A stretch of DNA of 50,118 bases, from IMG/VR virus record IMGVR_UViG_3300041964_000064, positions 1-50,118 of that record. One strand, written 5' to 3'. Origin of the DNA: a virus. The notes below the pieces were generated by a model that was given only the letters and a program-made list of their open reading frames with translations, was not told where the DNA came from and did not search any database. Positions 13,936 through 49,372 of this stretch are shown piece after piece. The position numbers were made by a program, and so were the translations under genes. Within the stretch, counting starts at the first letter, position 1. Each line of letters opens with the position of its first letter.

Positions 13936-14880
13936 TCAACCCCGGTATTGACCAAGGGCGCGATCGAAGTCCATTTTGTAGACGGTGGCAGAGCGATCGT
14001 TGTCGTAGTACGGATCGAACACTTGCGGGTTGCCGTCAATCACGAGCGTGTAGCCAAAGCTGGGGTCAATCTCAAAGTCAAGCGCAGCATTGGATCGATA
14101 GCTCAGCATCCCCGTTTCGATCGTCTCTTCCGGTACAGAAGCGAGAACCATGTGATTCCCAAATACGCGCTGCTTGGCACCGTTGCGCTTGACGATCGCA
14201 TTGCAGATCAGCATTTTGCGCAGCCCGTAGATGTTGGCGAGAACATCTAGCGTTAGCTGGTTTCTCAAGCCCGGAGACGTGCCAGTGCTTGTGAAGTTTT
14301 GAGAAAACTTGGTCGCTAGGGCATCGAAACACCAAGCGCCCCATGATCCCAATACTGGCATCGCTGCCACTGCCAAGCGCGATCGCGCTCAGCCAGTACG
14401 GATGATCGGGTCAGGGTCAACGTTGTTGAAGCGCGATCCGCCTGCTAGCGTGATCTTGTTCGAGGCAGCGTAGTTAGCAGGATTGGTGGCACGGTTTGCC
14501 GCTTCCACTTCGTGCATCAGTCCGCCGCGCTTCATCAGGGCACGAACGGCGCGACGACCCCAGTTGATCCGCAGGTTTTCAAACTCGCGACGACGCTTGT
14601 CAGGGACGCGATAGCTCAGACCCTTGGTGGTGAGTCGGAATGCGGGGCCACCGTCGATCCCTTCTTGGATCTCAGGGTAGGGCGTGTCGTCGGCGCGGTT
14701 GTCGTCTACTTCTTCATAGATCGAATCATCCCCTTTAGGAATTGTGCCGCCGTAAGTGGGGACAGGCACAAGCGGGAAGATCGATCGCATCACAAACTCA
14801 GGCTGTTTCGTTTCTTGCGCTAGCTGGGTGAGTACCAGATTCCCCTTAGCGCGTGTTGCTTCTAATGAAATGTCGAGCAT
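13936..14880 (-). CDS. Major capsid protein (frameshifted)
   Basis: The N-terminal 163 residues (MLDISLEATRAKGNLV; SIFPLVPVPTYGGTIPKGDDS; YRVPDKRRREFENLRINWGRR) have the usual start of HK97-fold capsids of Mu/P2-type phages. The frame breaks near 14395 (IIRTG to WLSAIALGSGSDASIG) and at GGGG near 14340 (to GAWCFDALATKFSQNF). It then runs through IYGLRKMLICNAIVKRN and ends FDPYYDNDRSATVYKMDFD at 13936. The repaired protein is about 313 residues. It follows the protease/scaffold and decoration genes, the standard head order. Confidence 0.85.
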
Positions 14881-14904
14881 GGCGGTTCCAGAATCGTTGA
14901 ATGG

Positions 14905-15276
14905 TTAGGGGTCGATCGAGCGGTCGTTATTAGCTAGGCAGAAGAACACTTCAATTAGCTGTCCGGCAGCAGTGGCAGTTTGACCGCGCTTAAACCGAGC
15001 GGCAACAGCGCCAGTGGTATAGGGAATCACACGACCTGATGCGTCACTGGCTAGCCGTGTTTCTGTACCATCGACCGCTGCGCCCGATTCCACCATTGCC
15101 GTGATGCCGTAGATCAAGCGACCGTTTTCGCCTGACTTGATCACGTGATCTGAAACGCCTTTAACTGCTGCGCCTGCGGTTGCAGTCTGATCATTCCAGC
15201 CGACAAAGCGCTTCATCGGAATGTCAGCCGCCGCTTGGATGGTGATCGTTTGGGTTCCGGTTTGCTGAGAACTCAT
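14905..15276 (-). CDS. Capsid decoration/stabilising protein (DUF2190-like)
   Basis: 123 residues: ITIQAAADIPMKRFVGWNDQTATAGAAVKGVSDH... then GQTATAAGQLIEVFF. The pattern of an Ala/Gly-rich beta protein with 'rfVg....ta.aga...GVs' fits DUF2190-type head decoration proteins, usually found between protease and capsid genes as here. A clean single frame 24 bases ahead of the capsid ATG. Confidence 0.65.
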   Translation of the reverse strand: MSSQQTGTQTITIQAAADIPMKRFVGWNDQTATAGAAVKGVSDHVIKSGENGRLIYGITAMVESGAAVDGTETRLASDASGRVIPYTTGAVAARFKRGQTATAAGQLIEVFFCLANNDRSIDP

Positions 15277-15288
15277 AATTTTTTACTC

Positions 15289-16539
15289 CTAGAGAACAAT
15301 GCCGATCGCATCCATGGCTTCGGCGTAGCTAAGGTTGTCTGATTTCATCCGGGCGCGAATTTGGCGATCGAGTTTGATCGACTCTGGGCTAGCCCCATCC
15401 AAATGACGCGACTCGATCTCGCTCTCCGCGAATGAATCAGGTGCATCCCCCGGTCGGGTCGGCATGTCGCCAACTGAGACGATCGGCTTGCGGGCGTCAA
15501 GTTGCTGGAGATAGCGATCGCGCGGTGTGGCACTGTTGCCTTCAGCAAATTCGACCTGACTGGAGTGGTCGATCGCCAGCGCTAGTTCGATAATTTCGGC
15601 TTTTTCTGTGCGGGCAATCTTGCGATCGTGACGAGCTTTTCAGCAAAGGCATTGACGCGATCGCGTTCGCGTTCCAGCGTGAGAGCATTGTTTTTGTCGC
15701 GCTCAGCTTGCAGTTGTTGGCGCAAGTCTTCTAACTCGGTTGAGTTGGTGGCTTCTGTTTCTGTAGTCATTTCAGAGTAGTAGGGAGAGAGTGAGGACAG
15801 CGGCATCTCGATCGCTTGCAGACGACGCATGACCTCATCTGCAAACAGGCGAAAATCTTCGTAAGGGAATGAGGGCTGAGCGTTGCGAATTAGCTCGATC
15901 GCGTAGGGCGAAATCTGCTGATCGGCTTTTTCCACGCCATCAGACTCGATCAGGCGATCGCGCATTCGAGCAGAGCGTGTCAGCAATCGCGCCAAACACC
16001 ATCGAGCCTTCTGAGTGATCAGCAGCTTCGCCAAATTCGATCGTGATAAAGTCTTTGCCGTCATCATTGAAAACGTGATCAGCCATTCCCTTTGACCGCA
16101 GGCACACCCACATAGGCAACGTGGCGAATATTGAAGCGCCCAGGCGTGGGATTGTCGGGATGGTCGGGTGGATAGAGCGAGATCGATCGCTTCTTGTAGC
16201 GCCCAGCCGTCACAGCAGCGGCAAACTCAGGCTCTACTTGCCGATAGTCTCCACTCAGCCGATCGCTTTGGCGGTAAGCCTTACTCAGCCATCCGTAGGC
16301 AGTATTGCTGTCATGCCCAATTAAGATCGGGGCGTCGTGTTCTTTCCAGCAATTTCGTTGTATGCGGTGGCAGCTTCTTCGAGTTCTGCCTGCGTCCACT
16401 CTTTTTGCCGCCCTAGCGAATCCCGCCTAACTCCTGCCTTAAACAGTTCTATCCCTTGCAGATCGACGGGTTCGCCTGCAAGGGCAGCAAGCGCAGCTTT
16501 TTGGGCTGCGGTGGGTTTGTTGGGAGCAGCTACAACCAT
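15289..16539 (-). CDS. Prohead protease/scaffold (Mu gpI-like), several frameshifts
   Basis: The gene starts at ATG 16537-16539 (MVVAAPNKPTAAQKAALAAL) and ends at TAG 15289-15291. Sections occur in successive frames: RDSLGRQKEWTQAELEEAATAYNEI; APILIGHDSNTAYGWLSKAY (Mu-I protease-like start with conserved H); FAAAVTAGRYKKRSISLYPP (conserved S); HVFNDDGKDFITIEFGEA; RDRLIESDGVEKADQQISP; coiled coil EDLRQQLQAERDKNNALTLERE (scaffold); and a C-terminal LDARKPIVSVGDMP...RQIRARMKSDNLSYAEAMD. About 415 residues when repaired. It should degrade itself and the scaffold during head maturation. H and S are candidate catalytic residues only by analogy with Mu I. Confidence 0.75.
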
Positions 16540-16625: not shown

Positions 16626-17165
16626 GTGCCACGTCACACCTTACTCACTCCTGCCATTCAAAAGTCGATCGTCTCTTCCCTCAAGAAGGGCAGCAGTTTT
16701 AAGGATGCCTGCCTGATGGCAGGTGTAGCAGAAGGGACGGGACGCGAGTGGCTATCTAGAGGCTTGGGGACGCACAGCGATCGACCCGATTATGCAGTGT
16801 TTGCAGAGTTTGCAGAGGCTATAAAAAAGGCGGAATTTGAGTTTAAGCAGGATGCAATCGCCAACATCTCCAAAGCTGCGAAGGGTTCAAAGTCTGTGCG
16901 GGTCAAAGAAGGGGTCGATCGAAACGGCGAACCAATCATTGAAACTTCGACCGAGACGCGATCGAGTTGGCAGGCGGCAGCGTGGCTTTTAGAGCGCAAA
17001 TACCCGCAAGAGTGGGGGGCGAAGCGAATGACAGAACTCGAAGCCCTCAAGGTCTTGGCTGATGCGGGCTGGATTCCACAAGCAGTAGTAGAGGCGGCGA
17101 TCGATGGGTTTAGCGATACTAGAACGCGGGTTCAAGCAAGCCTTAGTGCATTGTCAGAAGAGTGA
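16626..17165 (+). CDS. Terminase small subunit-like protein
   Basis: 179 residues from GTG 16626. The start TPAIQKSIVSSLKKGSSFKDACLMAGVAEGTGREWLSRG is a homeodomain-like HTH typical of small terminases/phage 'transposase-like' DNA-binding subunits. The middle (FAEAIKKAEFEFKQDAIANISKAAKGS..WQAAAWLLERKYPQEWG) matches the usual 'W.a..W.LERr.P..wg' ending. It overlaps the large subunit start. Role: recognise the packaging site and load the motor. Confidence 0.8.
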   Translation: MPRHTLLTPAIQKSIVSSLKKGSSFKDACLMAGVAEGTGREWLSRGLGTHSDRPDYAVFAEFAEAIKKAEFEFKQDAIANISKAAKGSKSVRVKEGVDRNGEPIIETSTETRSSWQAAAWLLERKYPQEWGAKRMTELEALKVLADAGWIPQAVVEAAIDGFSDTRTRVQASLSALSEE

Positions 17166-18622
17166 ACTCCAGCAAGAAGATCTGCTCAAGGTAAACGACG
17201 AGATTCCCGAAGAGTTTGAAGACTTTGCAAAAGGTGTCTTCATCCGATCGGGCTTAGAAATGGTTCCATTCATCCCCTACGACTACCAGCTAACGCTAGA
17301 CAAGCTGATAGACACTCATCGCGGCGTAGTTATTACTAAAACTCGCCAGATGGGGCTAACCGAGTACATTGCCTGTAAGTTCTTGCACAAAGCGGCTAGG
17401 TTTCGAGGCTATCTAGCGCTTGTATTCTCTAAAAATCAAAAAGACACGCGCAACATTGCCCGCCGTATTCGGATGATGGCAAACACTCATCCCAAGATCA
17501 GGCTAGCTGGCAGCAGTTTGGAAGACTTGAGCTTGATTGACGGGGGGCGCATTGTTTTTCTCACCTCAACCCCTAACGCCGGACGGGGTTTTGAGTCTGT
17601 CTCAGACATCCTTTACGATGAATGCGCCTTTGTGGACTCGATCGAGGAGATCTACGGTGCTGCTTCACCTTCGCAGCGAATGCTAGGCAGCGCAGCCCGC
17701 ACTATCTTGCTGAGTACGCCAGATTCGCAGTCTGGTTTTTACTGAATCAGCTAAATTCCGGCAATGGCGATCGCAATCTGCTGGAAACCTGCCGACTCAT
17801 GCGGGAAGAGTTGATCGATCCGGTACAGCACTGGACAGCAGCAAATGGCTGGGCGAAGTTCATCGTTCACTTTAAGGCGCATCCAATCTATCGATCGATC
17901 CCTCACTTCTTAGATCAGGTTCGAGAGCAAGACGGACTAACCGAGGCTCGATTACAGCGAGAGTACAACTTAGGCTTTGATGACGCTAGCAACCAGCTTT
18001 TGCTCAAAATCTCATTGTCAATGCTTCGATCGGGGAATGGCAGGAGCCTACATTTGGTCGCAACTACCTGATCTCGATCGATCCATCCTTTGGCGGTGCT
18101 GACTACTTCCAGATTCAGGTGTGGGACATCACCGATCTGGCTGTGACCTCGCTTGCAGCAGAATGGCGCAGTCATCACAAAGGGAAAGACTATTATTTGC
18201 AAGCCTGCTACGACCATGTCGATCGATACAATCCTGCACTGTTGGCGATCGAGGTCAACTCAGGCGGCACATTGTACGCCCAAGCGATCGCATCTGAACG
18301 TCCTGCATTGCGAGTAGAAACAGTCAATCACAGCAATATGAGCAAGCTGGTCAACACTGATCGCTTGGTACTCATGCACGAACGCAGTCAGATTGTCTAT
18401 CCTGCCGACTCCACCTTAGCCAAAGAACTGCCGCTGTTTGTGGAAGAAGTTGCTAACAAAATCCGCACTAGACACGCTGAAAGTGGAGCAACTGACGATG
18501 CAGTAATGGCAGCAGCAGTGATGACGGCATGGATCGAGGAAGCCCGATCGCTGTTCTCTGTCTCTTATTCAGCAGCAGGCGTGAGCAGCAACCCCGCATG
18601 GAAAGTTGCCCAAAGTCTGTAA
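17146..18622 (+). CDS. Terminase large subunit (two homopolymer frameshifts)
   Basis: Best start is GTG 17146 (VHCQKSELQQEDLL), inside the end of the small subunit. ATPase motifs: VVITKTRQMGLTEYIACKF (Walker-A-like), ILYDECAFV (Walker B) and LLSTPDSQSGF (motif III). Adding one T to T5 at 17736-17740 and one to T4 at 17998-18001 gives an unbroken protein. It continues FLLNQLNSGNGDRNL, then the nuclease domain YLISIDPSFGGADYF, LLAIEVNSGG and ESGATDDAVMAAA (acidic RNase-H-like site). About 492 residues, normal for the family. It powers DNA packaging and cuts the genome. Confidence 0.9.
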
Positions 18623-18698
18623 GCGAATATCGCCCGATCGCCCCCACAGTAACGCCGTGATTCCTACCGTGATTGCAGTCACCCCATTGCGTTAAGCT

Positions 18699-20453
18699 TT
18701 GCCGCTCGATTTATCTACGAAGCTGGACTTGTCAACCACTGATCCGCACTTGGCGCTGTCAGTGGGAAACTCGATCGCCCCTCAAGATGAGTATCTAGCC
18801 CTGCATTTGGGCGGTGACTACACCAAGTATTTAGCAATGCGGCGTGATACCGAAGTCAGGCGATCGCTGACTCGGTTACGCCTCGCCATTCAAGCCCGCG
18901 ATCTCGTTGTTGAGGCATCTTCAGAGTCAGAGCCGACCTGAAAGCAGCAGATCAAGTGCGATCGCTTCTAGGGCTTGGCGGCGGCAGAGCGAAGCTTCGC
19001 TATGAGTCTTTAACTTCAACTCTGCTCGACTCTGGCATGGTCTGCGGCTTTGCCGTGCTGCGTCTGGACTATCACGAGCATGGCGATCTGCTGCTGCCCT
19101 CATTTCAGTTTGTGCCGCAGAATCGATTGCCTTCACCCACCACAGACCGGACGATCGATCGATTCCAGTCTGCACAGGCGAAGATCTTGACCCTGCGACC
19201 GAGATCACGACCGTTGGCGGCTATGAACTGCGCCTGCTGACGCGCAAACACCCGTTTACAGGCGAACGCTGCCCGATTAAGCGGTTTCTGGTTATACCTT
19301 CGACGGCGATGGTAGCCCGTGGGGTTTGGGGCTGGGATACTCAATTTGGCCTTGGTGGACGATTAAGAATGAGGCGCGTAAGGCGTGGCTGCTGCACAGC
19401 GATCGGGCAGGTTCACCGCCAATCTTGGGGACACACCCTGTCAACTTCAGCGAAAAGATCCCCGACCAAGCGACGGTTTTGCAGTCGTTCAACAATTTCT
19501 TGCGGGCAGTTTCACCGCAGGGTTGGGCACGACTGCCGCAGGGGTTCACTGCTCAAACCCTGGACACCGTAGGCAAGGCAGGTTCAGAAGTTCACGAGGG
19601 ACTGATTCGCACTGCTAACCACGAGATCTGTAAGGTAATTCTGGGCGAAGTGCTTTACTCGGATCAGTCGAGTGGAAGCTATGCCGCCAATATTTCGCAG
19701 GTTGAGGATCGAGAGTCAGGGCTAATTGACGGCTACTGCAACCTGCTAGATGAACAGCTATCCGACTTCTGGCTGTGGATTCACGAAGTCAATCGTCTGC
19801 CGGGTGATCCGCCGATCGTTCGTCGTGAAACCCGCGCCGATTTGCGATCCGCAGAACGGGCTGAGCAGGAAGAAAAAGCCAAGCAATCCCGCATCGATCG
19901 CGACAAATCGCTGCTGGAGTTGGGCATCCGCCTCAAGCCCGATCGGGTGGCTCAAGTCTACGGCGAGGATTACATCGACACTGCGCAGTAGCCGCTGAGG
20001 AAGATGGCGGCGAACCTCAGCAGGCTTTGTTCTCCCAACTTCAAACAGGTGGAACACAAGCGCTAATCGGCTTTATCACCGGATTTGCTCAATCTGGACT
20101 CAGCAAAGACAATGCGATCGCGCTGCTTAAATCAGTGTTCGGCATTCCCAGCGATGCTGCTGCTGCCCTGCTGCCTGACATTGAGGAAGCCGCAGAAGAC
20201 GCACTACCACCCACACCGGAAGAGACAGCAGATCTACTTGATCAAGACTTTGCTGAAGCGGTTGCCAATCCGATCGACTGGCTCACCACCCACATTCAGC
20301 AATATCAGCCGGAAAGCTCGATCGACTGGTTGACCCAGACAGATTCATCAGTACAGTGCTGCAAGCGCGATCGATTGGCTAGCCCAAGAAATTCACAGTT
20401 TCGACTTTGCCGCTGCCCGCAAGGGAAGAAAACAGAGAAGAATTGCACGGTAG
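18699..20453 (+). CDS. Portal protein (Mu gp29/DUF935-like), several frameshifts
   Basis: The readable start is TTG 18699 (MPLDLSTKLDLSTTDP); a GTG near 18671 is possible if another indel exists. Segments follow in changing frames: YLALHLGGDYTKYLAMRRDTEVRRSLTRLRLAI; LDSGMVCGFAVLRLDYHEHGD; YELRLLTRKHPFTGERC; WGLGYSIWPWWTIKNEARKAW (the DUF935 'G.gl...w.w..K...' motif); VLQSFNNFLRAVSPQG; SLLELGIRLKPDRVAQVYG. After another shift at 19985 comes the C-terminal region rich in DWL repeats (NPIDWLTTHIQQ, SSIDWLTQ, SAIDWLAQEI). Dodecameric head vertex channel. The TAG at 20451 may itself be an artefact, as the next module continues one base out of frame. Confidence 0.75.
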
Positions 20454-21446
20454 GCTTTAGCTGTGGTTATGCCTGCATCAGTCGCAATAAAGCCTGCGTC
20501 AAAGCGCTAGAAGGACAGGCAAAGAACTACGCGGACTGGCTAAAAATCAGGTGCAGCGAGGCGGCAAGCTGTCAGACTCTCATCAGCAGCAAGCAGATGG
20601 CTTAGGGCTAGCGCAAAAATATCCCGAATCTTTGCCAGTTAATCATGCTGTGACTTCTGACAAGCGATTTTCAGGCAGCGCGATCGATGATGCGTTGAAC
20701 GCAATTCAAACCGAAGGCGCTGCTGTCAGAGTAGGCAAGTTTCGGGCATTTGTTGAACGGCAAAATGTTCAATCGGTTTTCTACGATGACAGCAAAAATG
20801 TCAGTCAGACTGCTGGGTTAATGCGCGGGCTTGAATCTACTCAGTTTGTAGATGATCCAGGGTGGCAGCGATACTTGCAGAGTAGAGGGGTTTCTGTGCC
20901 ACCCGCAAACGCTATAACATCGGGCGATCGGACTCGATTAATCCGAGAATCACTGAAGCCATTAGAGAGCGGCAACGGCTATACAGCGCTTGCAATGAAT
21001 CATGTTCATCTCACTACAGATAGCAAAAATGATGCTCGATCGAGTGCCAATCCTCAGCGATTCACTGTTCGTCCTGATGTAGTTTCAAATACGGTCAAGA
21101 ATGCTGTCTTGGATTTAGAGCGTGGGCAGGAAGCACCGGGGATTGCAATAAGTGGCGATCGAGAATCTTATGATGCTGACACCAAAACATTTCGCGTTTA
21201 TCTGCATGAGATGGGCATCAGGTTCACTTTGCTCAAGACTTCTCTGAACGCCCGCCCAATGTTCGCAGTTTGACGCGCTATTCCAGGACGAATAATGAAG
21301 AATGGTTTGCTGAACATTTTGCCGCCTATATGATTGACGCCAAGAGCTACCGAGAGTTTGATCCAGTCGGGCATGATTTCATCGAGGCTCAATTCAATGC
21401 GGCACTGCAAGCCGATCGCCGCATCAAAGGAGACTCAACACGATGA
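20403..21446 (+). CDS. Cys-motif plus HEMGH zinc metallopeptidase module (possible portal C-terminal extension)
   Basis: One extra G in GGG 20423-20425 carries the portal frame directly into KKTEKNCTVGFSCGYACI and the spacer KALEGQAKNYADWL. One extra A in A5 20542-20546 leads into QVQRGGKLSDSHQQQADGL. About 230 residues later comes VYLHEMGHQVHFAQDF, then NNEEWFAEHFAAYMID; the shift near 21210 is between EMG and HQ. HExxH plus a downstream ExxAxxFAAY glutamate is a gluzincin zinc site. There is no convincing independent start, so a portal-peptidase fusion is likely; otherwise a separate head protein. Comparable effector domains ride on MuF head proteins in other phages. It ends at TGA 21444-21446, overlapping the next ATG. 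Confidence 0.6.
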
Positions 21447-21611: not shown

Positions 21612-22665
21612 ATGCTCAATTTCTCTGGCAACCCTACCCCTGAAGATCTGGACTTAGCGGCAAGCCTGCTGATCAAGCAGCAGCTACCCCAAGCGATCGA
21701 GCTTATCCCTGCACCCAGCCAGCTAAACAACTGGTGCTTTAATGCCGCAGAAGGGCAATTTTCAGGGCATCTCGTCACCGCAGAAGGCGATCGGATGGCT
21801 TGGCATCTGAAGCGAGGCGCGACAGGTTGGGAACCCAGCACCAAGCCGCTAGAGTTTGCAGAGTTGAGCGATCGCCTGCTATCAGCCGCAGAACTCAACC
21901 AAACTGCGCCATCTGTGCTGCGCTACCTGTTGCAGCATGGCGAAAAGGGCTATAAAGATGGCATCGACGAGATCCGATCGTGGCGATGGAATGAGGCGGG
22001 ACAGGCATTTGAGGGCGTATTTGTTGATCAGCGTCCTGGAGCCGATCGCGTGTTCAGCTTCACCATTACGAACCGGGACGGTGAATGGCTGCGATCGTTT
22101 CGGATGCAGTCTGACAGCAATCGATCGAACTTTGCTGAAGATGACTTGCTGACCAATTCAGAGTGGGACGCGATCGCCAATGCTGTAGGGTCTGATGAGT
22201 CGATCGCTGAGGCAATGGCGGCACTCGATCGAGCAGCAGAGACGCTAGAGGACGTAGAATTTGCTGAACCTGCTGATCCACTCAGTGGACTGGATGCACA
22301 GGGACAGCAAGATCTAATCGATGTCCTTGATGAGGTTTATCAGGACGGAGTAGAGCGAATCATCGGCGCGAAGCTAGATGCTGCTGGCGATATTCGCGTG
22401 GTGTTTGAGGATGTGAATGGGTCGATCGTGCGGCGATTTGCGGGCAAGATTGAAGATCCAGACGGAGATCCGATCGTCACGTTTAAGCTTGCCTCTGAAG
22501 GTGCTGCAAGCTTCTCTGAACATGAGTTGCGCCCAAGAAATCAACTGGAGCCGCTAAAAAGAAGAACTGCACACCCGGCAAGTCGATCAGTTGCGGTGGT
22601 AGCTGTATTTCGTAAAGAAAACCTGCCGATCGACTGAAACCGTTTCCGACAAAGCAAAGGTAAGG
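21612..22665 (+). CDS. Head-region protein with repeated WxFNxAxGxFxG units and terminal Cys motif
   Basis: ATG 21612 follows the small gene by four bases. About 320 clear residues contain three related ~50-residue blocks (NNWCFNAAEGQFSGHLVTAEGDR; SWRWNEAGQAFEGVFVDQRP; IIGAKLDAAGDIRVVFEDVNG), probably repeated small beta domains. Near 22550 the frame changes and reads AAKKKNCTPGKSISCGGSCIS, a second copy of the Cys motif seen after the portal. The open frame then enters the C-depleted stretch, where no frame is reliable, so the real C-terminus is not visible. No family recognised. Confidence 0.55.
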
Positions 22666-23160
22666 CGCGATGGTGGGAAGGATGAATATATATGGGATGA
22701 GAAAATTAGACATAAGAAGGAAGAGCAATCATAGGATGATAGGAATGTTGGTGGGTATAGGAGTATGAGGATGTTGTAAGTGAGATGGGAAGGGGTAGAG
22801 TGAGAAGTAGGTTGGGGTATAGTGTAAAGGTTAATAAGAGCGATTTGTTGAGAGTTAGTATAATAAAAGAGAATGAGTTGTGACGTTTGATTGTGTTTGT
22901 GGAGTAAGGAGGGAGTTTTGGGGTTAGAGTTAAGTATATGAGGGAGGGTTGTGATAAGTGAATATTTGAAGGTGATTGGGTTTTCAGGGTGGGATTTGGA
23001 TTTTGGGGTGTAATATGAAAAGAGATGAGTAAGGATTGTCAATTGGTTATACGAAGTTGAATGAGAATGATGGTAACGTAGGATTTATTGGTTAAGGAGA
23101 GTATGAAGTAGATGAGGAGGGATGTGAGGGGTATTGTTGGGGTGACCACGATAAGAGGAG
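22666..23160. other. C-depleted stretch of about 500 bp
   Basis: In 22681-23160 I count about 12 C in 480 bases (2.5 percent), with G about 37, A 32 and T 29 percent; flanking DNA has roughly a quarter C. No HIP1 site occurs here. Stops are frequent in all + frames. The long - strand ORF (22587-23042) exists only because a G-poor strand lacks TAG and TGA. C is still scarce (about 8 percent) to 23280, inside the next ORF. The left edge falls just after the Cys motif of the previous protein. No gene is called; see findings. Confidence 0.7.
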
Positions 23161-23161
23161 G

Positions 23162-23485
23162 GTGATAGTAGAGATTGGTGAACGAAGACAATACGGGGGC
23201 TTTGAAAAACACTACGAGATAAATGCAGAGGGATTGACAAAGGCGATTAGAAGAAGGGGAAGATGTTATATAATAGAGATTGCTGAACAGCTACTCGATC
23301 GCTATTCTTGGCGACCGCTTGTGGCTGAAACGATCGGGCGAATGTCAAGCGCACTAGATGCAAAATCTAAGCGAGAACTGCAACAACTCCAGCGGGCGTG
23401 GAACAATCGAGATGAAACGCCAATTAGCGAGGATGAAGCAGGCCGGATGGTCTCACGAGTTTATGCGCTATTGGGCATTGATTAA
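23162..23485 (+). CDS. Hypothetical protein, true start obscured by C-depleted stretch
   Basis: The apparent start GTG 23162 is probably internal: the same frame is nearly open back to about 22985 except for two TAA codons. The clear part is LLDRYSWRPLVAETIGRMSSALDAKSKRELQQLQRAWNNRDETPISEDEAGRMVSRVYALLGID, helical and charged. It may be the C-terminal part of the gene begun at 21612. No recognised family. Confidence 0.45.
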   Translation: MIVEIGERRQYGGFEKHYEINAEGLTKAIRRRGRCYIIEIAEQLLDRYSWRPLVAETIGRMSSALDAKSKRELQQLQRAWNNRDETPISEDEAGRMVSRVYALLGID

Positions 23486-23499
23486 TAAGAGGCAAGCAA

Positions 23500-23727
23500 A
23501 TGGATTTAGTGGAGTATCAGAAGCTTAAACAGCGCAGACGATCGCTGGAGGACAAATTCAAGCAAGGCGATCGATCGCAAGAACTAATAAAAGAACTGGA
23601 GTCCATCAGCAAGACGCTTGAAGATGATCCACCCACCGTCGAAACCCTGTATGGGGCGATCGGGCAGTCTCGCGAAACTGTTGATATGACCGAAAGAGAA
23701 GAAGGGGATGAATCCACAGAGGAATGA
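23500..23727 (+). CDS. Small charged coiled-coil protein
   Basis: 75 residues, MDLVEYQKLKQRRRSLEDKF..., preceded by AAGAGGC at 8-10 bases. Highly charged heptad-like helix followed by an acidic tail (REEGDESTEE). Overlaps the start of the MuF-like gene (ATGA). Possible scaffold or head accessory; unrecognised. Confidence 0.6.
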   Translation: MDLVEYQKLKQRRRSLEDKFKQGDRSQELIKELESISKTLEDDPPTVETLYGAIGQSRETVDMTEREEGDESTEE

Positions 23728-24390
23728 CGATCGCCCCTCCGATTGACTTTGCCGCAGAATACAAGCTCGATCGCAACGGCAGACTGCGCTACAGCAGCGG
23801 TGCAGGACGGGGGCAATATGCCCCTAGATCAGCCACCCTAGCGCTAGAAGCCCGATCGATCGCGCTGCAAAAAGCAGAGTTGCAGACATTGGGCGATCGA
23901 GTGTCTAGCGGGCAAATGACGCTGCGAGATTTCCAACAGGAAGCGGGCGAACTGTTACGGAAACTTCACGCATCCAGTGCGATCTGCGGTCGTGGGGGCT
24001 TGGATAAGATGAGCGATCGTGACTGGCTAGCGATCGGACGCCTCCTCAAAGTTCAATACTATGACGGTAAAGACGCCGAAACCGATCGCCGTTTGGACTC
24101 AAGCACCTTGCCGCAGAACTCAAAGCGGGAACCGTTAGCCCTGCGATGCTCAGCTACAGATTGGGCTGTATGCCGACAGTGGGAAGATCAGCTTCTACGA
24201 GATGGAACGCCGATCGCGGCAGGATGAGGGCAAAACAGAAGCGCGTCGGTTGCTTGCCAATGCCGATCGATCGTGCCCTGAGTGTACTGCCTATGCCCGC
24301 ATGGGATGGGGTGCGATCGATCAAGCAGTCTTACCCACTCAGAAATGCCAGTGCCGGGTACGCTGTCGCTGTCAGCTTGAGTATCGCTGA
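23724..24390 (+). CDS. MuF-like minor head protein C-terminal region with Cys cluster (two frameshifts)
   Basis: ATG 23724 overlaps the previous stop. One T added to TTT 24092-24094 and one G to GGG 24163-24165 give a 222-residue protein. It opens AEYKLDRNGRLRYSSGAGRGQYAPR, continues ARSIALQKAELQTLGDRVSSGQMTL.QEAGELLRKLH and RRFGLKHLAAELKAGTVSPAMLSYRLGLYADSGK, and ends ADRSCPECTAYARMGWGAIDQ with CQCRVRCRC. The helical middle and the terminal CPEC...CxCxxxCxC zinc-type site resemble minor head/morphogenesis proteins next to the portal in Mu-like phages. Ends at TGA 24388-24390, three bases before the convergent tail gene stop. Confidence 0.6.
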
Positions 24391-24392
24391 AG

Positions 24393-24995
24393 CTACTCCA
24401 TCAGCAGATCGCCCAACACACTAAAGTCTAGATAGAACTGCTCATAGACCACAGTCGATCGCCCGTACACTGGCAGAAATAGCCGCACCAGTCGCTCTAC
24501 AAGTTGCCATTCGTTGCTAGTACGCAGATATCCGCCCACATCCAGTGGCAACAGCACATATCGATCGAGTGCATCGCCTGAGAGTGGATCGCCTGTGAAG
24601 TTCACATCCACCCGAAAGTCTCCAGGCTGATAGTATTCGCCCCGGATGCCAAAGACATCGAGTAGCCATTCCAGTAGGGACGATCGCCCAATATTCGGCC
24701 ATACCTCGGTAAAGGCGTTAGCAATGAGAGTGCGCTTGGCAGCTACAGACCATGTAGCGTCCCAATAGTCGCCTGTATAGCCGTGGTACTGCGCCAGCCA
24801 GTCGAGAGCATCGGCGCGGGCGGTTGTCGGGTCTACGAAGTCGCGATCGAAGTTGCGGATGGCGTCGTGAATTTCGATCGTGATGCGATCGATCGGGCGG
24901 GTTAGCCACTCGACAACCTCATTCCCTTGATACGTTTCTGCATCTTGGGGAAGGCGTCCTAGGATGGGGATTCCCTTTTCCCATGCGGAAGTCAT
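24393..24995 (-). CDS. Baseplate/tail protein I-like
   Basis: 200 residues in one clean frame. RADALDWLAQYHGYTGDYWDATWSVAAKRTLIANAFTEVWPNIGRSSLLEWLLDVFGI has the order of P2 gpI-type tail proteins (La.......W......kR.Li.....w...Gt...l...l..). It would sit at the baseplate edge and connect fibres. It is the only gene in this orientation between the head block and the HNH gene. Confidence 0.65.
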   Translation of the reverse strand: MTSAWEKGIPILGRLPQDAETYQGNEVVEWLTRPIDRITIEIHDAIRNFDRDFVDPTTARADALDWLAQYHGYTGDYWDATWSVAAKRTLIANAFTEVWPNIGRSSLLEWLLDVFGIRGEYYQPGDFRVDVNFTGDPLSGDALDRYVLLPLDVGGYLRTSNEWQLVERLVRLFLPVYGRSTVVYEQFYLDFSVLGDLLME

Positions 24996-25329: not shown

Positions 25330-25405
25330 TACAATAGTTCTAGCGCTGCTGAAGTGCGTCAACACTAGTCAGCAGCTAACCCTACACAACTTGGAGTTAG
25401 CAAGT
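25330..25405 (+). promoter_or_regulatory. Promoter and two-hairpin leader of HNH gene
   Basis: TACAAT at 25330-25335 is a good -10. The following RNA can fold GCTGCTGA-AGTG(CGTCAA)CACT-AG-TCAGCAGC (25345-25376). A small stem ACTT/AAGT (25389-25405) holds the SD GGAG in its loop directly before the ATG. A similar arrangement precedes the gene at 37792. Confidence 0.5.
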
Positions 25406-26155
25406 ATGTCGGCTATCTATGATGATCGCACGATCGATCGATTTTTTGCCAAGGTTGAGAAGTTAGCAGACCCGGATGGGTGTTGGCTGTGGACGGGGCA
25501 AAAGACCCGCAGGGGAATACCTTCAATGTATATCAATAGTCAAAACTACCTTGCCCCAGTTCGCAGGGTGTCTTATGAGCTGCATTATGGACGCGTTCCA
25601 AAGGGTCAGACTGTAAAAGTTTCTTGTTCAAATTCAGAGTGCCTTAATCCCAGTCATTTGAAGTTGTCGGCATCCCAGCGATCACTTTCAACGGAGCAGC
25701 GCTTTTGGAGCAGGGTTGACCGATCGCCAGGACTTGGCAAAGGTGATTGCTGGCTGTGGACAGGCGCTAGACTATCAAACGGCTATGGAGTGTTCGGCCT
25801 CAACGGAAAGTCAGCCTACAAAACACATCGATTTTCTTATGAGCTTGCGCATGGCGAAATTGGAGATGGTCTATTTGTTTGTCACAAATGTGATGTCAAG
25901 CACTGCGTCAATCCTGATCACCTATTTGCAGGAACGCCAAGAGAGAACGCTTTGGATATGTGCGCAAAAGGAAGACACGCACAAGTCAAAGGCGAAGCTC
26001 ATTATTCTGCTCGACTGACGGAGGCAGATATTGTTGCGATTAGAGCAATGGCTGAATCTGGAATGACACATGAGGCGATCGCTAAACTCTTTCCAATCAG
26101 CAGACGTCATGCGACTGATATTATCAACAGAGGATGCTGGAAGCACGTTGCTTAG
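25406..26155 (+). CDS. Free-standing HNH homing-type endonuclease (two HNH modules)
   Basis: I start at ATG 25406 because of GGAG 10 bases upstream. The 249-residue protein has a degenerate first module (GCWLWTGQKTRRGIP..VRRVSYELHYG..CLNPSHL) and an intact second one (DCWLWTGARLSNGYGVFGLNG, HRFSYELAHGEIGDGL, VCHKCDVKHCVNPDHLFAGT, KGRH), i.e. the phage HNH_3 type with CxxC and H-N-H residues. The C-terminus LTEADIVAIRAMAESGMTHEAIAKLF is the HTH tail often attached to such enzymes. It is an inserted gene, oriented against the tail genes on both sides, and probably selfish. Confidence 0.88.
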   Translation: MSAIYDDRTIDRFFAKVEKLADPDGCWLWTGQKTRRGIPSMYINSQNYLAPVRRVSYELHYGRVPKGQTVKVSCSNSECLNPSHLKLSASQRSLSTEQRFWSRVDRSPGLGKGDCWLWTGARLSNGYGVFGLNGKSAYKTHRFSYELAHGEIGDGLFVCHKCDVKHCVNPDHLFAGTPRENALDMCAKGRHAQVKGEAHYSARLTEADIVAIRAMAESGMTHEAIAKLFPISRRHATDIINRGCWKHVA

Positions 26156-37522: not shown

Positions 37523-37678
37523 GGGCGATCACCTAAAAAACTCACGAACGGGCGACAAGGGACGATCGCGCGGATCAATGGGCAGAGCATCCATGTTCAC
37601 CACAGAGACGCGCCGGGGATCTCGGTCGGGACGCAGGAACGATTAGAGCAGGCAGGGTGGGAGTTAGCAGAAGAATGA
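37509..37678 (+). CDS. Small paralogous protein B (one frameshift)
   Basis: MNWRKGDHLKNSRTG, then after a shift near 37555 GTIARINGQSIHVHHRDAPGISVGTQERLEQAGWELAEE. Shared features with protein A: W-x-x-GD--xNSxTG start, a middle hydrophobic strand pair, S-G/VGTQE...GW...L ending. A tandem duplication of an unknown small protein; DNA-mimic or regulatory roles are only guesses. Confidence 0.5.
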
Positions 37679-37703
37679 CACTGACAGCAACCCTGGAAAA
37701 GTT

Positions 37704-37791
37704 TAAAATAGTAGAAATGGCGAAAGCTGCGGTGCTGGAAACACCACAACTTTCTAAGCAAGCCACTTGTGCGTACCAAGGGACTTACCTA
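37704..37791 (+). promoter_or_regulatory. Promoter and two-hairpin leader of zinc-ribbon HNH gene
   Basis: TAAAAT -10 at 37704-37709, then GAAAG-CTGC-GGTG(CTGGAAA)CACC-ACAA-CTTTC (37722-37754) and CTTG(TGCGTAC)CAAG (37666+100 to 37780) shortly before ATG 37792. The order -10 box, nested hairpin, short hairpin, ATG repeats that upstream of the HNH gene at 25406; both begin TA(C/A)AATAGT. Confidence 0.45.
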
Positions 37792-38880
37792 ATGAATACT
37801 TTATCGGATTGCGGCAGAGCAGTAGATCTGTCTGGTCAGGTTTTTGGATTGTGGACGGTTCTGCATCGTGACCCAAACCAGATCGCCCAGAGGGGAAAGC
37901 CTGCAAAATGGATTTGCCGTTGCGAGTGCGGCAGGGAAAAGTCGGTTTTCGGATCTTCACTTAGATCCGGTGATTCGCAATCGTGCGGATGCCTGCTGAC
38001 AGCATTTAACAAAAGACAGACACAGAAGCGGCGATCGGACTTGTCAGGGCAGAGGTTCGGACGCTATACCGTTCTGCGGCATGACACTGAGACGGCCAAG
38101 AATGGCGGGCGGATGCCGAATTACATCTGCCAGTGCGATTGTGGCTCTCCAGTGCGATCGGTATCACGACAGGCACTTGTAAAGGGCGATGCAAAGTCTT
38201 GTGGATGCCTGCACAAAGAGATCGTGTCCAATGCGGCTCATGACCTAACTGGGCTGGTATTTGGTCGATTAACTGTTATCGATCGGGCAGATGTTGTCAA
38301 GCGGCGTAGAGGGCAGGGCGCAAAGTGGAATTGCCGATGTGAGTGTGGAAAGACCAAAGCCATTGACGCATGCGCATTGAAATCTGGACTAACTGTGTCC
38401 TGTGGGTGCTTCCACAAAGAGGCGGTGACCAAGCATGGAAAATCGCACGAGCGCATCTATTCAAGTTGGAAGGGAATGACAGCGAGATGTCAAAACCCCA
38501 AAGATCCTGCGTACAAAAACTATGGAGGGAGGGGAATAAGCGTCTGCTCAGAGTGGCAAGACTTTGAGGCATTTCGAGAATGGGCACTTCAAAACGGCTA
38601 TCAAGACGATTTGACGATCGAGCGCAAAGATGTCAACGGGAACTATTGCCCTGAGAATTGCTGCTTTATCCCTAAAGCTGAGCAGTCCAAGAATCGACGC
38701 AACACATCAAGATTACAGCTTGGGGTGAGACAAAGACGGGTGCAGAGTGGCTGCAAGATCCCCGATGCAATGTTTCTTCCATGGATGGATTGAAAATGCG
38801 GATTTTTGCGAAAAATGCCGCCTGAAAAGGCGATTTCAACACCGCCACGTAATCGCAACACGCAAGAAATTTCCGCATGA
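37792..38880 (+). CDS. HNH-type endonuclease with three zinc ribbons (frameshifts near the end)
   Basis: I start at ATG 37792 (MNTLSDCGRAVDLSGQ). Three ~65-residue modules each have a DLSGQxFGxxTVLxR start and a CxCxCG...SCGC knuckle: WICRCECG...SCGCLL; YICQCDCG...SCGCLH; WNCRCECG...SCGCFH. They are followed by IYSSWKGMTARCQNPKDPAYKNYGGRGI, CSEWQDFEAFREWA and IERKDVNGNYCPENCCFIPKAEQSKNRRN, a common phage/mobile homing-nuclease core. After one shift near 38715 it reads ITAWGETKTGAEWLQDPRC; one more A in A5 38811-38815 gives MPPEKAISTPPRNRNTQEISA and TGA 38878-38880. That overlaps the pilin ATG. Confidence 0.82.
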
Positions 38881-40333: not shown

Positions 40334-41225
40334 ATGACCGCATCCACAAACGCTAGCGCCAAAGAGTTGCTGAGGGCGATCGAAGAGATCAGCTACGCCT
40401 GCACTATCAGCCAATAGTCTCACTGCAAGCTCCCTGATCTGCGCGTCTGTGGGTACGAGGCCTTAGTGCGCTGGCAACACCCCGATCGAGGTTTGCTGTT
40501 TCCTGCGGCTTTTCTACCAACACCAACCCAGGTGAATGTGATTGATTTCAAATGGCAGAAACCACTGTTTGACTGGGTGTTTGCAAGAGCCTGTAAAACA
40601 GCAGCAACGCTAAAAGGAGAGAAGTATATAAGCGTCAATGTCTCTCCTCTTCAATTCGCTGAAGAGGGCTTTATTCAACAGGTAAAAAAGTCGATCGACT
40701 TGCTGAATTTAGAGCGGAAAATTTGCCTGGAAATTACCGAAGATTCGATTTCAATGCGCGAACTAGACGCTATTCAGCAAGCACTAACTAGCCTGTCTGA
40801 CTCAACCAAAATCGCCCTAGATGACGCTTGGACAGGTTCTTCTTCACTGTGGAGAATTAGCGAACTGCATGGGCTAATTGACCTACTGAAAATTGATAAA
40901 ATCTTCATGCCTCGCGATTCTTTTGACCGCAAATCGATCGCCATCTACAGATGCTTTCATCACACTAGCTGATGCGCTTGACCTCCAAACAGTAGCAGAA
41001 GGAATCGAAACTCAGCAGCAAGTAGAGTTCTGTAGGGCGATCGGGGTGACGTTTGGGCAGGGCTATTATCTGGGCAAAGGTGAAGAGTCGATCGAGGGGA
41101 ACGTAGAGGGCGATCGCCTGTACTCCCACGAAGCGGCGGCTAAAATGTGGGGGCGATCGATCATCAACGCAACCGAGCGGCGTAGAGCTAGACTCTTGTG
41201 GGTAACGACCTTGAGTGCTGATTAG
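40334..41225 (+). CDS. EAL-domain c-di-GMP phosphodiesterase (frameshifts)
   Basis: ATG 40334 (MTASTNASAKELLRAIEEI). The shifted start reads HYQPIVSLQ, GYEALVRWQHPDRGLLFP. Conserved EAL motifs follow: YISVNVSPLQF, ICLEITEDS, KIALDDAWTGSSSL (where the usual DDFGTG reads DDAWTG), LLKIDKIFM, then after a shift near 40945 ITLADALDLQTVAEGIETQQQ and GQGYYLGK. The EAL glutamate, ExTE and AEGVE-like metal and loop residues are present, so hydrolysis of c-di-GMP is plausible. About 297 residues, no sensor domain. It would lower c-di-GMP in the host, affecting pili, motility or aggregation. Confidence 0.8.
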
Positions 41226-43239: not shown

Positions 43240-43372
43240 GGGGCGCGATCGGACAGAGTTAGCTACTATATAAGCTAGATACCGCAAAGCGCCAGCAGCG
43301 CGGCTGATCTGTCGGAATAACGGGTGAAAGTTTCTCAGGCTCTACCGTTATCTGGCTAAATCACGAATTACA

Positions 43373-43426
43373 GAAGAAACCCTTGCAGGCTGTAGTGACC
43401 ACCTACACGATCGCAAGGGTTTCTTC
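43373..43426. terminator. Strong bidirectional terminator
   Basis: Perfect 14-bp arms GAAGAAACCCTTGC (43373-43386) and GCAAGGGTTTCTTC (43413-43426) with a 26-base loop, followed by GTTTT on the + strand. It lies between the + accessory cassette and the convergent HNH gene, serving both. Confidence 0.75.
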
Positions 43427-43474
43427 GTTTTGACAGCTTGAGAGGCGATCGCCCTAAAACAGGCAAGCTGCCCT

Positions 43475-43992
43475 TCAGCAACAGACTTCGATCGCCTTGC
43501 CCTTGCGCCTGCTCTGAGGTGGGTGGAAGGCTGGGATGTGGAGCGATCGCAGCTTAGGGCGAAGATTTCGGCTTCGATCGGGTCATACCATGCGGGCGGC
43601 TCTCCGTCTTCGTCGCACACCCCGGCATAGACTCCGAAAAGGTCGGTTCTCATGCCGCTGATGAGCTTTGCCGCTTGGTCAGGATCGCCAGAAACCTCGA
43701 TCGCATTTAGCAGCATCCTCTGCCAGATAATGCCACCCTGCCGCTGGTACTGAAGAAACTTGTCGGCATCCATTGGCACGTTTTTGTGACACTGCCTGCA
43801 CAGCGATATCAGGTTTGACAGGTCATCTGATCCACCCTGCTCTATCCAGTAGATGTGATGCGCCTCAACGTGGTCATAGACGAAGCCGCAGCATTGACAG
43901 ATACTTCGATCGCGCTTTTTCACCTGATTCGGCAAGGTGTAGCTGCGCTTCGATCGTTCTTCTTTGGGTGCAATTGAGAGCTTCTTTGACAT
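43475..43992 (-). CDS. HNH nuclease (one frameshift near the end)
   Basis: MSKKLSIAPKEERSKRSYTLPNQVKKRDRSICQCCGFVYD; HNH core: CQCC, HVEAHHIYWIEQGGSDDLSNLISLCRQCHKNV (CxxC, HH, N, CxxCH). A C-terminal helical part follows (DADKFLQYQRQGGIIWQRML). The unshifted frame runs into the terminator hairpin; one base over near 43560 it reads KLRSLHIPAFHPPQSRRKGKAIEV and stops at TGA 43475-43477, a better end. About 173 residues. Divergent from the integrase. Free-standing nuclease, possibly packaging-related or selfish. Confidence 0.8.
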
Positions 43993-44078: not shown

Positions 44079-45512
44079 TGATCTATCCTTCCTGGGTAAT
44101 TCGATCGCATCTACACTTACTGCCGCGTCTCCAGTCCCAACGAGGCGCAAGCCCGATCGATCGAAACCCAGCGCAATCGACTCTCGCAGGTTCGCCCCAA
44201 ACCCGATCGCCAATATGAGGATGTCCAGGGTGGAGATGATCTGACCCGACCGGATTACACCGCATTGCTAGCACAGGTGCAGCAGGACTGCCTAGAGAGT
44301 CGGTTCAAGGTATTGGTGGTTGTAACTGAGCAATCGCGCCTATCTCGTGATGAAAATCTGCCGCAGCTGATCGAACTGTTCGACGCGATCGGCGCGACAC
44401 TCTACGCCCTCGACGGTGGCAAGAAGACGACACGAGAGCCGCAGGAATGGCTGATGGTGTCACAGGAAGCGCTATTTAACCAGTATTTTCTGCGGCAACA
44501 TCGCCGCACACTGCGATCGAACAAAGCTCAGCGCAGAAGTGAAGGCAAGCCCATTAATCCGCGTCCGGCTTGGGGTTGGCTGTGGACTCGCGAGAAGTAC
44601 ATCGTTGACGAAGAGAAGCGGGCGCGAATCATCGAATTCTTTTTTAACTACCTGCCACCTACCAGCGGCGGCAAAGGCTGGTCACTCGATCGCTGCGCCC
44701 AATATGCGACCGCGAACGGCTTTAAGGTGTCGTCGCACGGCTTCAGGGCGTGGATTCTAAACGGCATCCACAGAGGGCATCTGTGCGGACATGCAGACGG
44801 CTACACGCGAGAAGATCGGTTGCGCGATCGCGCAATGAAAAAGAATGGAATCAAGCCACCCGATCGCAGCTATAAAATCCTCCACTACTTTGCTCACGAA
44901 GCGCTAATCACAGAGGAGCAATATCAGGCAGTAGTTGCGAGGCTTGAGGAAAATCGCCGCTATGCGCGAAGAGGAACCAGCAATCCTCGCTATCCACTTT
45001 CGGGGCTAGTTTTCTGTGGGCTGTGCAATAACCGCATGACTCGCCACACGACGATCGAACGGCGGTACGGGCGCAGATATGGCAACTTCCACTGCCGCGA
45101 CTTTAACTGCCCCAACCGTCGATCGATCAGCGAACGCATTCTAGAACGGCAGCTACACGCGACGATCGCTGCCAAGGCGGAATCGATCAGCCAAGCACTC
45201 AACCAAAGCACGGTGGAAACAACAAATCCTGAAGAGATTAAGCTAAAACATCAGATTGAAGAGTTACAGCGCATTTACAAGCAAGCCCCAATGGAAGGCA
45301 TTCGGTTAGCGATCGAGGAACTGGAAGGCAAGCTAGCCTCACTTGCCAAAGTTGAAAAAGAAACCCCTGATCTGACCAAGTTAATCAAGACATTTGCTAA
45401 GCCGACAAATTTTGCCGCTTTGAACGACGCTGAGAAGCGGATTGTTTATCACGAGATTTGCGATCGGATCGTGGTTTCGCCTCAGTCGGTTCAGGTGATT
45501 CTAAATCTGTGA
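44079..45512 (+). CDS. Large serine recombinase (XisF-like integrase), frameshift at N-terminus
   Basis: The clear frame begins FDRIYTYCRVSSPNEAQARSIETQRNRL: YCRVSS holds the catalytic serine, with QRNRL of the resolvase domain. A stop just upstream means the first residues come from another frame (GTG 44079, VIYPSW). Further: VLVVVTEQSRLSRDENLPQLIELF (resolvase Arg pair), recombinase domain (KAQRRSEGKPINPRPAWGW; LNGIHRGHLCGHADG), zinc ribbon (FCGLCNNRM...CRDFNCPNR), coiled coil (EEIKLKHQIEELQRIY). About 478 residues. Likely integrates and, with a partner, excises this element. Confidence 0.85.
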
Positions 45513-46246: not shown

Positions 46247-46452
46247 CAGTCGATCTCCCCATCTCTTTCGTGTGTCAGAGCAAAATTGATCGCCCTTTTA
46301 ATCGCCCCGTCGCTCGTCTCTTGCGCTGCTAAATGCCTGAGTTTGTTTTGCATTTCTGGCGAAATAACGACGAGGCTAGACTTGCTGCCATTGATTACAA
46401 ATTTCGAGAGCCAACAAACTAACTGGTATAGGTCGTGCTCGGTGAATGTCAT
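46246..46452 (-). CDS. Small hypothetical protein
   Basis: 68 residues: MTFTEHDLYQLVCWLSKFVINGSKSSLVVISPEMQNKLRHLAAQE..IKRAINFAL. Helical, possible RHH-like DNA/protein binding but no clear motif. Overlaps the DpdA-like gene end by four bases, so it is in its operon. Confidence 0.55.
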   Translation of the reverse strand: MTFTEHDLYQLVCWLSKFVINGSKSSLVVISPEMQNKLRHLAAQETSDGAIKRAINFALTHERDGEID

Positions 46453-47207
46453 GCAGCGTCCTCATTGAGTAAGTCCAATTGATTGAAAGATTGATCCAAA
46501 AACGATCGAATCACCCTGATATTGTTTCGAGCCCTTTCTTCTGCGCTCAGAAGCAAACCCAGTCGAGCCATACGAACTCGATCGCCCCGTGTTGTAAATA
46601 TTTCTGTCGCCTTCAGCCCATACAGCCAAGCGGTGCTATCGGCAGACTCAAACCACGACTGCAAACTTGCCCATTTCAGCGCTCTAACTCCGTTAATTCC
46701 AAATAGATGCGCTTTGGCATTGCAAGCGGTTAAAACCTCGCCAATTGGCTCTAGTCGCGATCGCAGGGCAGCAAAATCAGAGGATATCGGCACTAACCCG
46801 CCCACGCCGACATATTTGGTTTCGATCGCCATTTCTCTCAGCAACCCAAGATCGCCACCCTGATACACCCACAGCACTTTGCGGGCAAGACTGGCAGGCA
46901 GAATAGATGTCAGTTTTTGGTAGTTAGAATGGCTAGCTTGCTGATCGCCAATTACATCGAGATTGGCGTACCAATCAAGCGCGTAAAGAGCGGCAGAGGC
47001 TTCGATCGTAGCTGCATATTTGGCGACATCTGTTAAGCCTTGATAGGCTCCACTATCGGCGCATCCATTCGGCTTGAGTTCAATCATTTCCTTGGCGATC
47101 GAAGGAAATAAAAGAACCTCAGGCGGACTGAGCATAACGCTGGCATTTTCAGAAGCCAGCAGTCGCAAGTGTGACGCGCGATCGACCCCAGAAAAATAGA
47201 TTTTCAT
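46449..47207 (-). CDS. DpdA/tRNA-guanine transglycosylase-like protein
   Basis: 252 residues from ATG 47205-47207 (MKIYFSGVDRASHLRLL), single frame. TIM-barrel markers follow the TGT/DpdA order: VMLSPPEVLLFP; CADSGAYQGLTD (DSG nucleophile-side loop); YALDWYANLDVIGDQ; KVLWVYQGGDLGLL; KYVGVGGLVPISSD; AHLFGINGVRALKWA; ESADSTAWLYG. No zinc ligands of tRNA-type TGT are obvious, as in phage DpdA proteins that swap guanine for a 7-deazaguanine in DNA. A QueF-like gene is coupled upstream. DNA modification against host restriction is the likely role; tRNA or other action remains possible. Confidence 0.65.
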   Translation of the reverse strand: MKIYFSGVDRASHLRLLASENASVMLSPPEVLLFPSIAKEMIELKPNGCADSGAYQGLTDVAKYAATIEASAALYALDWYANLDVIGDQQASHSNYQKLTSILPASLARKVLWVYQGGDLGLLREMAIETKYVGVGGLVPISSDFAALRSRLEPIGEVLTACNAKAHLFGINGVRALKWASLQSWFESADSTAWLYGLKATEIFTTRGDRVRMARLGLLLSAEERARNNIRVIRSFLDQSFNQLDLLNEDAA

Positions 47208-47566
47208 GGCCTGCACTCGCATTCAACCCGCAGCCGCCCGCAGTCTAGAACGAGATGCGCCACAACCGAAACAGGAACCGATGTCGCAGCAGCACAATCG
47301 ATCGCAATCCGCTGAATCATCGACTCCATTTCTCGCTCAATCATCGTGCCGCTATAAGGGCACTTTTTGCCGCCGATGTAGGTGCTGATGTAATCGCGCA
47401 GACTGTAAACCTCGATGTGTTTGGACTGCGGAGTGTAGGAAATCTCGATCGTGCTTCCAGGCTGAGGATTGCCAGAGATCGGGCAGCACTGCGGCAGATC
47501 GAGAGTGTGAGTTTGGACAGTGGCAACGGTCTTGTGATGGTTGGGGAGTGTTTTAAGTTCGTTCAC
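47204..47566 (-). CDS. QueF-like 7-deazaguanine reductase family protein
   Basis: 120 residues. CCPISGNPQPGSTIEISYTP then HIEVYSLRDYISTYIGG is the QueF order: catalytic Cys in CP.sg.P, then the EvxSLrdY substrate segment. The C-terminus IAIDCAAATSVPVSVVAHLV completes a tunnelling-fold unit. Shorter than typical single-domain QueF (~150-165) and lacking the FHE tripeptide region, so it may be a QueF-like amidotransfer variant. ATGA overlap with the DpdA-like gene. Expected to turn preQ0 into preQ1 or a related base. Confidence 0.65.
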   Translation of the reverse strand: MNELKTLPNHHKTVATVQTHTLDLPQCCPISGNPQPGSTIEISYTPQSKHIEVYSLRDYISTYIGGKKCPYSGTMIEREMESMIQRIAIDCAAATSVPVSVVAHLVLDCGRLRVECECRP

Positions 47567-48472: not shown

Positions 48473-49372
48473 CTAATCGTCGTTACAAACACAGTCAGAA
48501 ATTACTGTGCTGACAAAGTATTCATTGGGCTTGCTCGACTCGATTAGAGACTCCCAGGAATACTCACGTCCCAACCCTTGAACGGATTTACTTTTGGCGG
48601 CATTGTGTTCAAGCGCGATCGCCCGCTGCAATAAGTCAGGATGCTCGATCGCCAACTGCCGCACTTCTCTGGGTTTGCGGTTAGGACAGAAGAAGCAGGC
48701 AGACTTAGGCGGTATCGGCAAGCCAGCGGCAAGAATTACCGCCTCGCAGTGTCCCTGATGCCATTGGAACGGGTAGATCAGCGGATATAAGTAAAACGTC
48801 GATTGACTCTCCAGATAAGGCAAGCCAGATTTGCGATTAAACAGTCGAGAAACTTCGCCCGCATGAATCCCCTTGCAGGTGCGAATTTTGTCTGCATCAG
48901 GTCGATACTGCTGGAGCCATAGCTTGATGTAGCGATCGTAGGGTTCGATCTTCCACTTAACAGAACATTCAGACGAGCCGTAAGCCTTGCTTGGCAAAAA
49001 CTCTGTTGAAAGACATTGAGACTCTAACGTTTCGTATTTGCCCATACCCAAAGACGATCGACTGATTGTGGTGACTGGCGGCATTCCCTTGTCAGCTAGC
49101 CACTTCGAAAAAAGCTCAATGTAGGCGTAGGTTTCGGGTAGCTCGCCGCCCGTATCGGCAAACAGAATCAGATCGGGAATCATGCCGATCGACCACATAC
49201 CGATCAACAGCGCTGTGCTGTTTCTGCCAGCGCCATAGGAGACAACCAGGGGAGCATCGGCAGGGAGGGGACGATCGCGCAAAAGTTCGATCGCATAGGG
49301 CAAATTCTGCCTGCGCTGCACGGTTTGATCTTCACCGAATAGATCGGTTTGAATTTCTGTAGCTACTGTCAT
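48473..49372 (-). CDS. PP-loop ATP pyrophosphatase (PAPS reductase-like)
   Basis: 299 residues. PLVVSYGAGRNSTALLIGM is a PP-loop (S.GaG.nST) and LILFADTGGELPETYAYIELFSKWL the following strand-helix of the PAPS reductase/DndC/QueC-like superfamily. GSSECSVKWKIEPYDRYIKLW and SACFFCPNRKPREVRQLA supply Cys pairs (CxxC). Such enzymes adenylate a substrate for sulfur or nitrogen transfer. Phage versions are common beside DNA-modification genes, fitting the DpdA/QueF-like pair 1 kb away, but no specific substrate can be named. Confidence 0.75.
   Translation of the reverse strand: MTVATEIQTDLFGEDQTVQRRQNLPYAIELLRDRPLPADAPLVVSYGAGRNSTALLIGMWSIGMIPDLILFADTGGELPETYAYIELFSKWLADKGMPPVTTISRSSLGMGKYETLESQCLSTEFLPSKAYGSSECSVKWKIEPYDRYIKLWLQQYRPDADKIRTCKGIHAGEVSRLFNRKSGLPYLESQSTFYLYPLIYPFQWHQGHCEAVILAAGLPIPPKSACFFCPNRKPREVRQLAIEHPDLLQRAIALEHNAAKSKSVQGLGREYSWESLIESSKPNEYFVSTVISDCVCNDD

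Follow-up and report, generated by a model that had tools for sequence, protein, structure and literature searches.

In mutation by deaminase and uracil-glycosylase, as in antibody somatic hypermutation, C can be changed to any base with a strand preference, and it is this combination that the locus described here brings to mind, although we know of no instance in which such change is near-complete over hundreds of consensus bases. DGRs, which the initial annotation of this DNA brought in for comparison, resemble the locus in producing localised base-selective change in a phage gene, but they alter adenine positions, rely on a reverse transcriptase together with a template repeat, and leave their gene open (PMC3521204), and none of these traits is found here. 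Consensus errors that split genes are typical of uncorrected assemblies (PMC12007338). The likeness here is that conserved genes near the stretch lie in successive frames, although the errors described there are mostly short homopolymer indels and do not include a one-base dropout over ~600 bases.

The window, by which we mean this whole stretch of analysed DNA, is a record made up of a single linear contig (50,118 bases) from a HIP1-rich, cyanobacterial virus. The + strand around the C-poor stretch encodes terminase subunits, a Mu-type portal and other head-region proteins, while the - strand to its left encodes the major head protein, scaffold, protease and tail sheath. Elsewhere there are a serine-recombinase integrase, two HNH endonucleases and a further ORF that is HNH-like by eye (44265-45512, 37657-38793, 43348-43992 and 25391-26155, all + except the third, which is -), and the virus is probably temperate. 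Auxiliary genes at 46449-47222 and 48473-49372 (both -) encode queuine tRNA-ribosyltransferase-like and phosphoadenosine phosphosulfate reductase-like proteins.

Composition and edges of the C-poor stretch

The depletion of cytosine is really present in the record and far beyond chance. At 22681-23160, where the initial annotation had estimated about 12 C in 480 bases, a recount gives exactly 12 (binomial P of 12 or fewer at p = 0.24, ~2e-40), and C-free runs of 110 and 100 bases occur there. Across 450 kb used for comparison (the window outside the stretch, together with the fetched loci), no base falls to less than 5.9% in any 475-bp segment. The other compositional claims were borne out as well: the DNA on either side is ordinary (~21% C in the flanking change-point segments), CGATCG (HIP1) drops from 369 copies in the window (1 per 136 bp) to none in the stretch, and A, G and T are all raised (31.7, 36.7 and 29.2 percent), with conversion of C to one other base rejected.

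The best change points for C content delimit a core, beyond which a second zone, the right shoulder, leads back to ordinary DNA (Table 1). The depletion thus has a sharp left edge and a graded right edge, ~614 bases in total. The left edge likewise has a short C-poor piece that is open, and short pieces at both ends have a coding-like phase composition; across the whole stretch, a lag-3 signal has no coherent phase and is weak once the number of lags tested is counted.

Table 1. Features of the C-poor stretch and its neighbourhood
Feature	Position	Strand	Description	Basis
C-poor core	22669..23144	+	1.9% C; all + frames interrupted	change-point fit, composition, three-frame translation
Right shoulder	23145..23282	+	9.4% C, climbing to normal; shares an open frame with the downstream ORF	four-segment change-point fit, codon counts, open-frame simulation
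Head-module ORF upstream	21612..22637	+	341 aa, no homologue; ends just 5' of the stretch	ORF, translations, coding-frame HMM, searches
Downstream reading frame	23096..23485	+	129 aa, first third in the C-poor zone, no homologue	translation, searches
Terminase large subunit	17092..18619	+	three successive frames	end-to-end alignment with one intact ORF in relatives
phrog_24776-type protein (23.7 kb)	23712..24387	+	two frames	both pieces match one ORF in L026/L027

Several ordinary kinds of element were considered and set aside. For a structured RNA there is no Rfam match at E<=1 and folding is no better than that of shuffles (z 0.92). A minus-strand gene was suggested by a 151-aa frame at 22587-23042, but this frame has no match in Pfam and is explained by the shortage of G on the minus strand. 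As for repeat elements, the stretch holds no tandem, inverted or long repeat, the sole case being a 19-nt near-repeat (89%) at 23165-23183 and 23270-23288 (+), whose in-frame copies, offset by 105 bases, lie at either end of the right shoulder and may represent a join point or a repeat in the protein.

Reading frames and relatives around the stretch

A Cys motif precedes the stretch and the stretch fades into a normal ORF, as the initial annotation had it, the former being seen in translations and the latter in the open downstream frame. The motif (NCTPGKSISCGGSCIS, then KKTC) stands at the C-terminal end of the upstream ORF and is read in two other frames, so that at least two frame changes fall within about 22529-22620, that is, within the 140 bases directly 5' of the stretch, and the coding-frame HMM indeed loses the frame at 22528. 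The downstream frame is probably the C-terminal part of the same gene as the upstream ORF, and we infer that one head-module gene spans 21612 to 23485. Its Cys motif is paralleled by NCTVGFSCGYACISRNKAC in an ORF piece at 19865-20602, the form C...GxSCGxxCIS...KxC being common to these two head-region proteins (in the second at 22560-22640, +). After the first of these motifs, a head-module protein at 20551-21434 (+) carries an HEMG-type motif, possibly that of a zinc peptidase, where its frame breaks near 21220.

Conserved genes nearby are broken too, with no sequence missing. The terminase pieces (17092-17742, 17622-18068 and 17990-18619) and those of the 23.7 kb protein (23712-24224 and 24139-24387) align end to end with single ORFs in relatives, the protease and a phrog_11823 protein are each split by frame changes, and an in-frame stop divides the major head protein. 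Split phage genes, the portal among them, lie at 13936-16399 (-), 17092-19991 (+), 23712-24424 (+) and 40466-41225 (+), and represent either assembly errors or a decaying prophage. The damage is regional, since most of the tail genes between 24.4 and 36 kb are unbroken. Broken genes beside intact homologues are what an artefact predicts, and prophage decay would look alike.

Of the five proteins used as queries (upstream, downstream, portal, terminase and 23.7 kb), only the terminase, the portal and the 23.7 kb protein have relatives. The nearest relatives of the virus are cyanobacterial phages and prophages, with which it has only one or other of these proteins in common, and the genes flanking the stretch are kept in none of the loci examined that carry them. 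The upstream and downstream proteins have no homologues in viral contigs, phages, plasmids or 386 cyanobacterial genomes, a negative that says little for orphan queries. Two of the loci (L026 and L027) are closely similar prophage head modules on separate contigs of one cyanobacterial genome, which both encode a relative of the 23.7 kb protein and differ in the extra genes inserted.

What became of the cytosines

Under Markov models fitted to the remainder of the window, loss of C and its random replacement fit about equally, a natural low-C model fits 5-17 bits more poorly than either, and C->T (bisulfite-like or plain deamination), C->A and C->G are each rejected by 34-75 bits. The core has no more order than a shuffle, unlike most real DNA of this virus, and codon models likewise find no signal there beyond that of a shuffle. 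In simulations in real genes, in-frame replacement of C usually leaves a codon signal and loss of C often leaves none; codon-usage decoding models proved too weak to arbitrate between the two.

The 62 codons of the right shoulder that are open in the downstream frame are reproduced in 11% of replacement simulations and 0.8% of loss simulations (P 0.008), C-dependent residues (P, A, T, H, Q, S) number 6 there against 24 expected, and codon choice is shifted, with AGR in 7 of 8 Arg codons (18% being the virus norm) and ATA in 4 of 7 Ile codons (norm 6%), as when C is replaced inside ordinary codons. The shoulder is therefore better accounted for by replacement, or by coding DNA truly poor in C, than by loss, and replacement at the edges with noise in the core may be the best reading of the fate of C.

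Weighing the explanations

The initial annotation had offered three readings, an artefact, cytosine-directed diversification and acquired DNA of extreme skew, of which we favour the artefact: the C-poor stretch is probably where base calling or consensus building failed locally and missed C on the + strand. Around 600 bases of the record would then derive from low-quality reads, or perhaps a single one, with hardly any calls of C on the + strand (G on the other), A, G or T being written or C skipped, and the underlying DNA would probably be an ordinary part of the single head-module gene proposed above. Coverage would be very low across the stretch, and the split genes would share its cause. 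We favour such a failure because (i) a single-base dropout with a sharp left and a graded right edge is unmatched in 450 kb, (ii) A, G and T rise as expected from C lost or randomly replaced, (iii) the core is orderless beyond a shuffle, (iv) the frame breaks twice just 5' of the stretch, (v) conserved neighbours are split as in uncorrected consensus sequence and (vi) the residues and the Arg and Ile codons of the right shoulder suit replacement of C in ordinary codons. A failed read signal would fit the length, the one missing base and the pair of unlike edges better than the genetic mechanisms known to us, and one might guess at a weak dye channel, the length being near that of one Sanger read and one base of the four being lost. 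Nevertheless, a literature search gave no match for an artefact of exactly this kind and we know of no documented one-base dropout like it, the split genes could also stem from a defective prophage in decay (an in-frame stop interrupts the major head protein), in-frame replacement should have left a codon signal that is missing from the core, and loss of C should have scrambled a shoulder that is open. This last point counts against the variant of the artefact, counted within it, in which C was deleted from ~630 bases, and which we regard as unlikely. Composition and the order-3 Markov fit agree with deletion, as do the ghosts that CGATCG and HIP1 would leave behind (GATG 10 vs 11.6 expected, GGATG 5 vs 4.1), but these counts are also within the shuffle range (P 0.25 and 0.13), and dinucleotide order is below that of 97% of C-stripped chunks.

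It is possible but doubtful that the stretch is instead genuine DNA, whether acquired or evolved, of extreme strand skew, situated within a head gene or substituted for part of one, perhaps in a defective prophage, and avoiding C by origin or under some pressure. Real coding DNA is the best explanation of the open shoulder, it would account for the coding-like pieces at both ends, and several broken structural genes are what a decaying prophage would show; however, the core has no open + frame and the order of a shuffle, the natural low-C model fits worse, the residues of the shoulder are far from the usual make-up of proteins, and nothing similar was found in phages or the 450 kb of comparison loci, nor any exact 25-mer in viral contigs. 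We give far less credit still to one-strand hypermutation or diversification directed at cytosine, in which nearly every C in part of the head gene would have become A, G or T by deamination, uracil removal (deaminase and glycosylase) and error-prone bypass, or through an unknown polymerase. Replacement of C without preference for one base, on one strand only and in one gene, beside a Cys motif, speaks for it. Diversification is nonetheless not supported, because there is no reverse transcriptase, no template and a stop codon in each of the three + frames of the core: with more than 90% of C gone and such stops, no useful protein variation would result, and so near-complete a change is not expected in a consensus without fixation. 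The absence of a reverse transcriptase, already remarked on in the initial annotation, holds for a PF00078 profile run on the record (nothing at E<=1, with controls found), which may be a fragment; the C-containing template copy that it proposed to look for was not found in the window or the fetched loci, with C stripped or C free, scores equalling those of shuffles. A DGR is thus rejected on its two hallmarks and on the base concerned, C being missing and A raised. A process turning cytosine into any base would fit the letters of the stretch, but not its wreckage.

Were the stretch real, no precedent would exist for base-selective change of this kind in a virus genome. If it is an artefact, as is probable, it is a warning that records in virus databases may hold one-base dropouts that mimic biology and break genes, and that such dropouts could be flagged by simply scanning for 400-bp segments in which a base falls below 5%.
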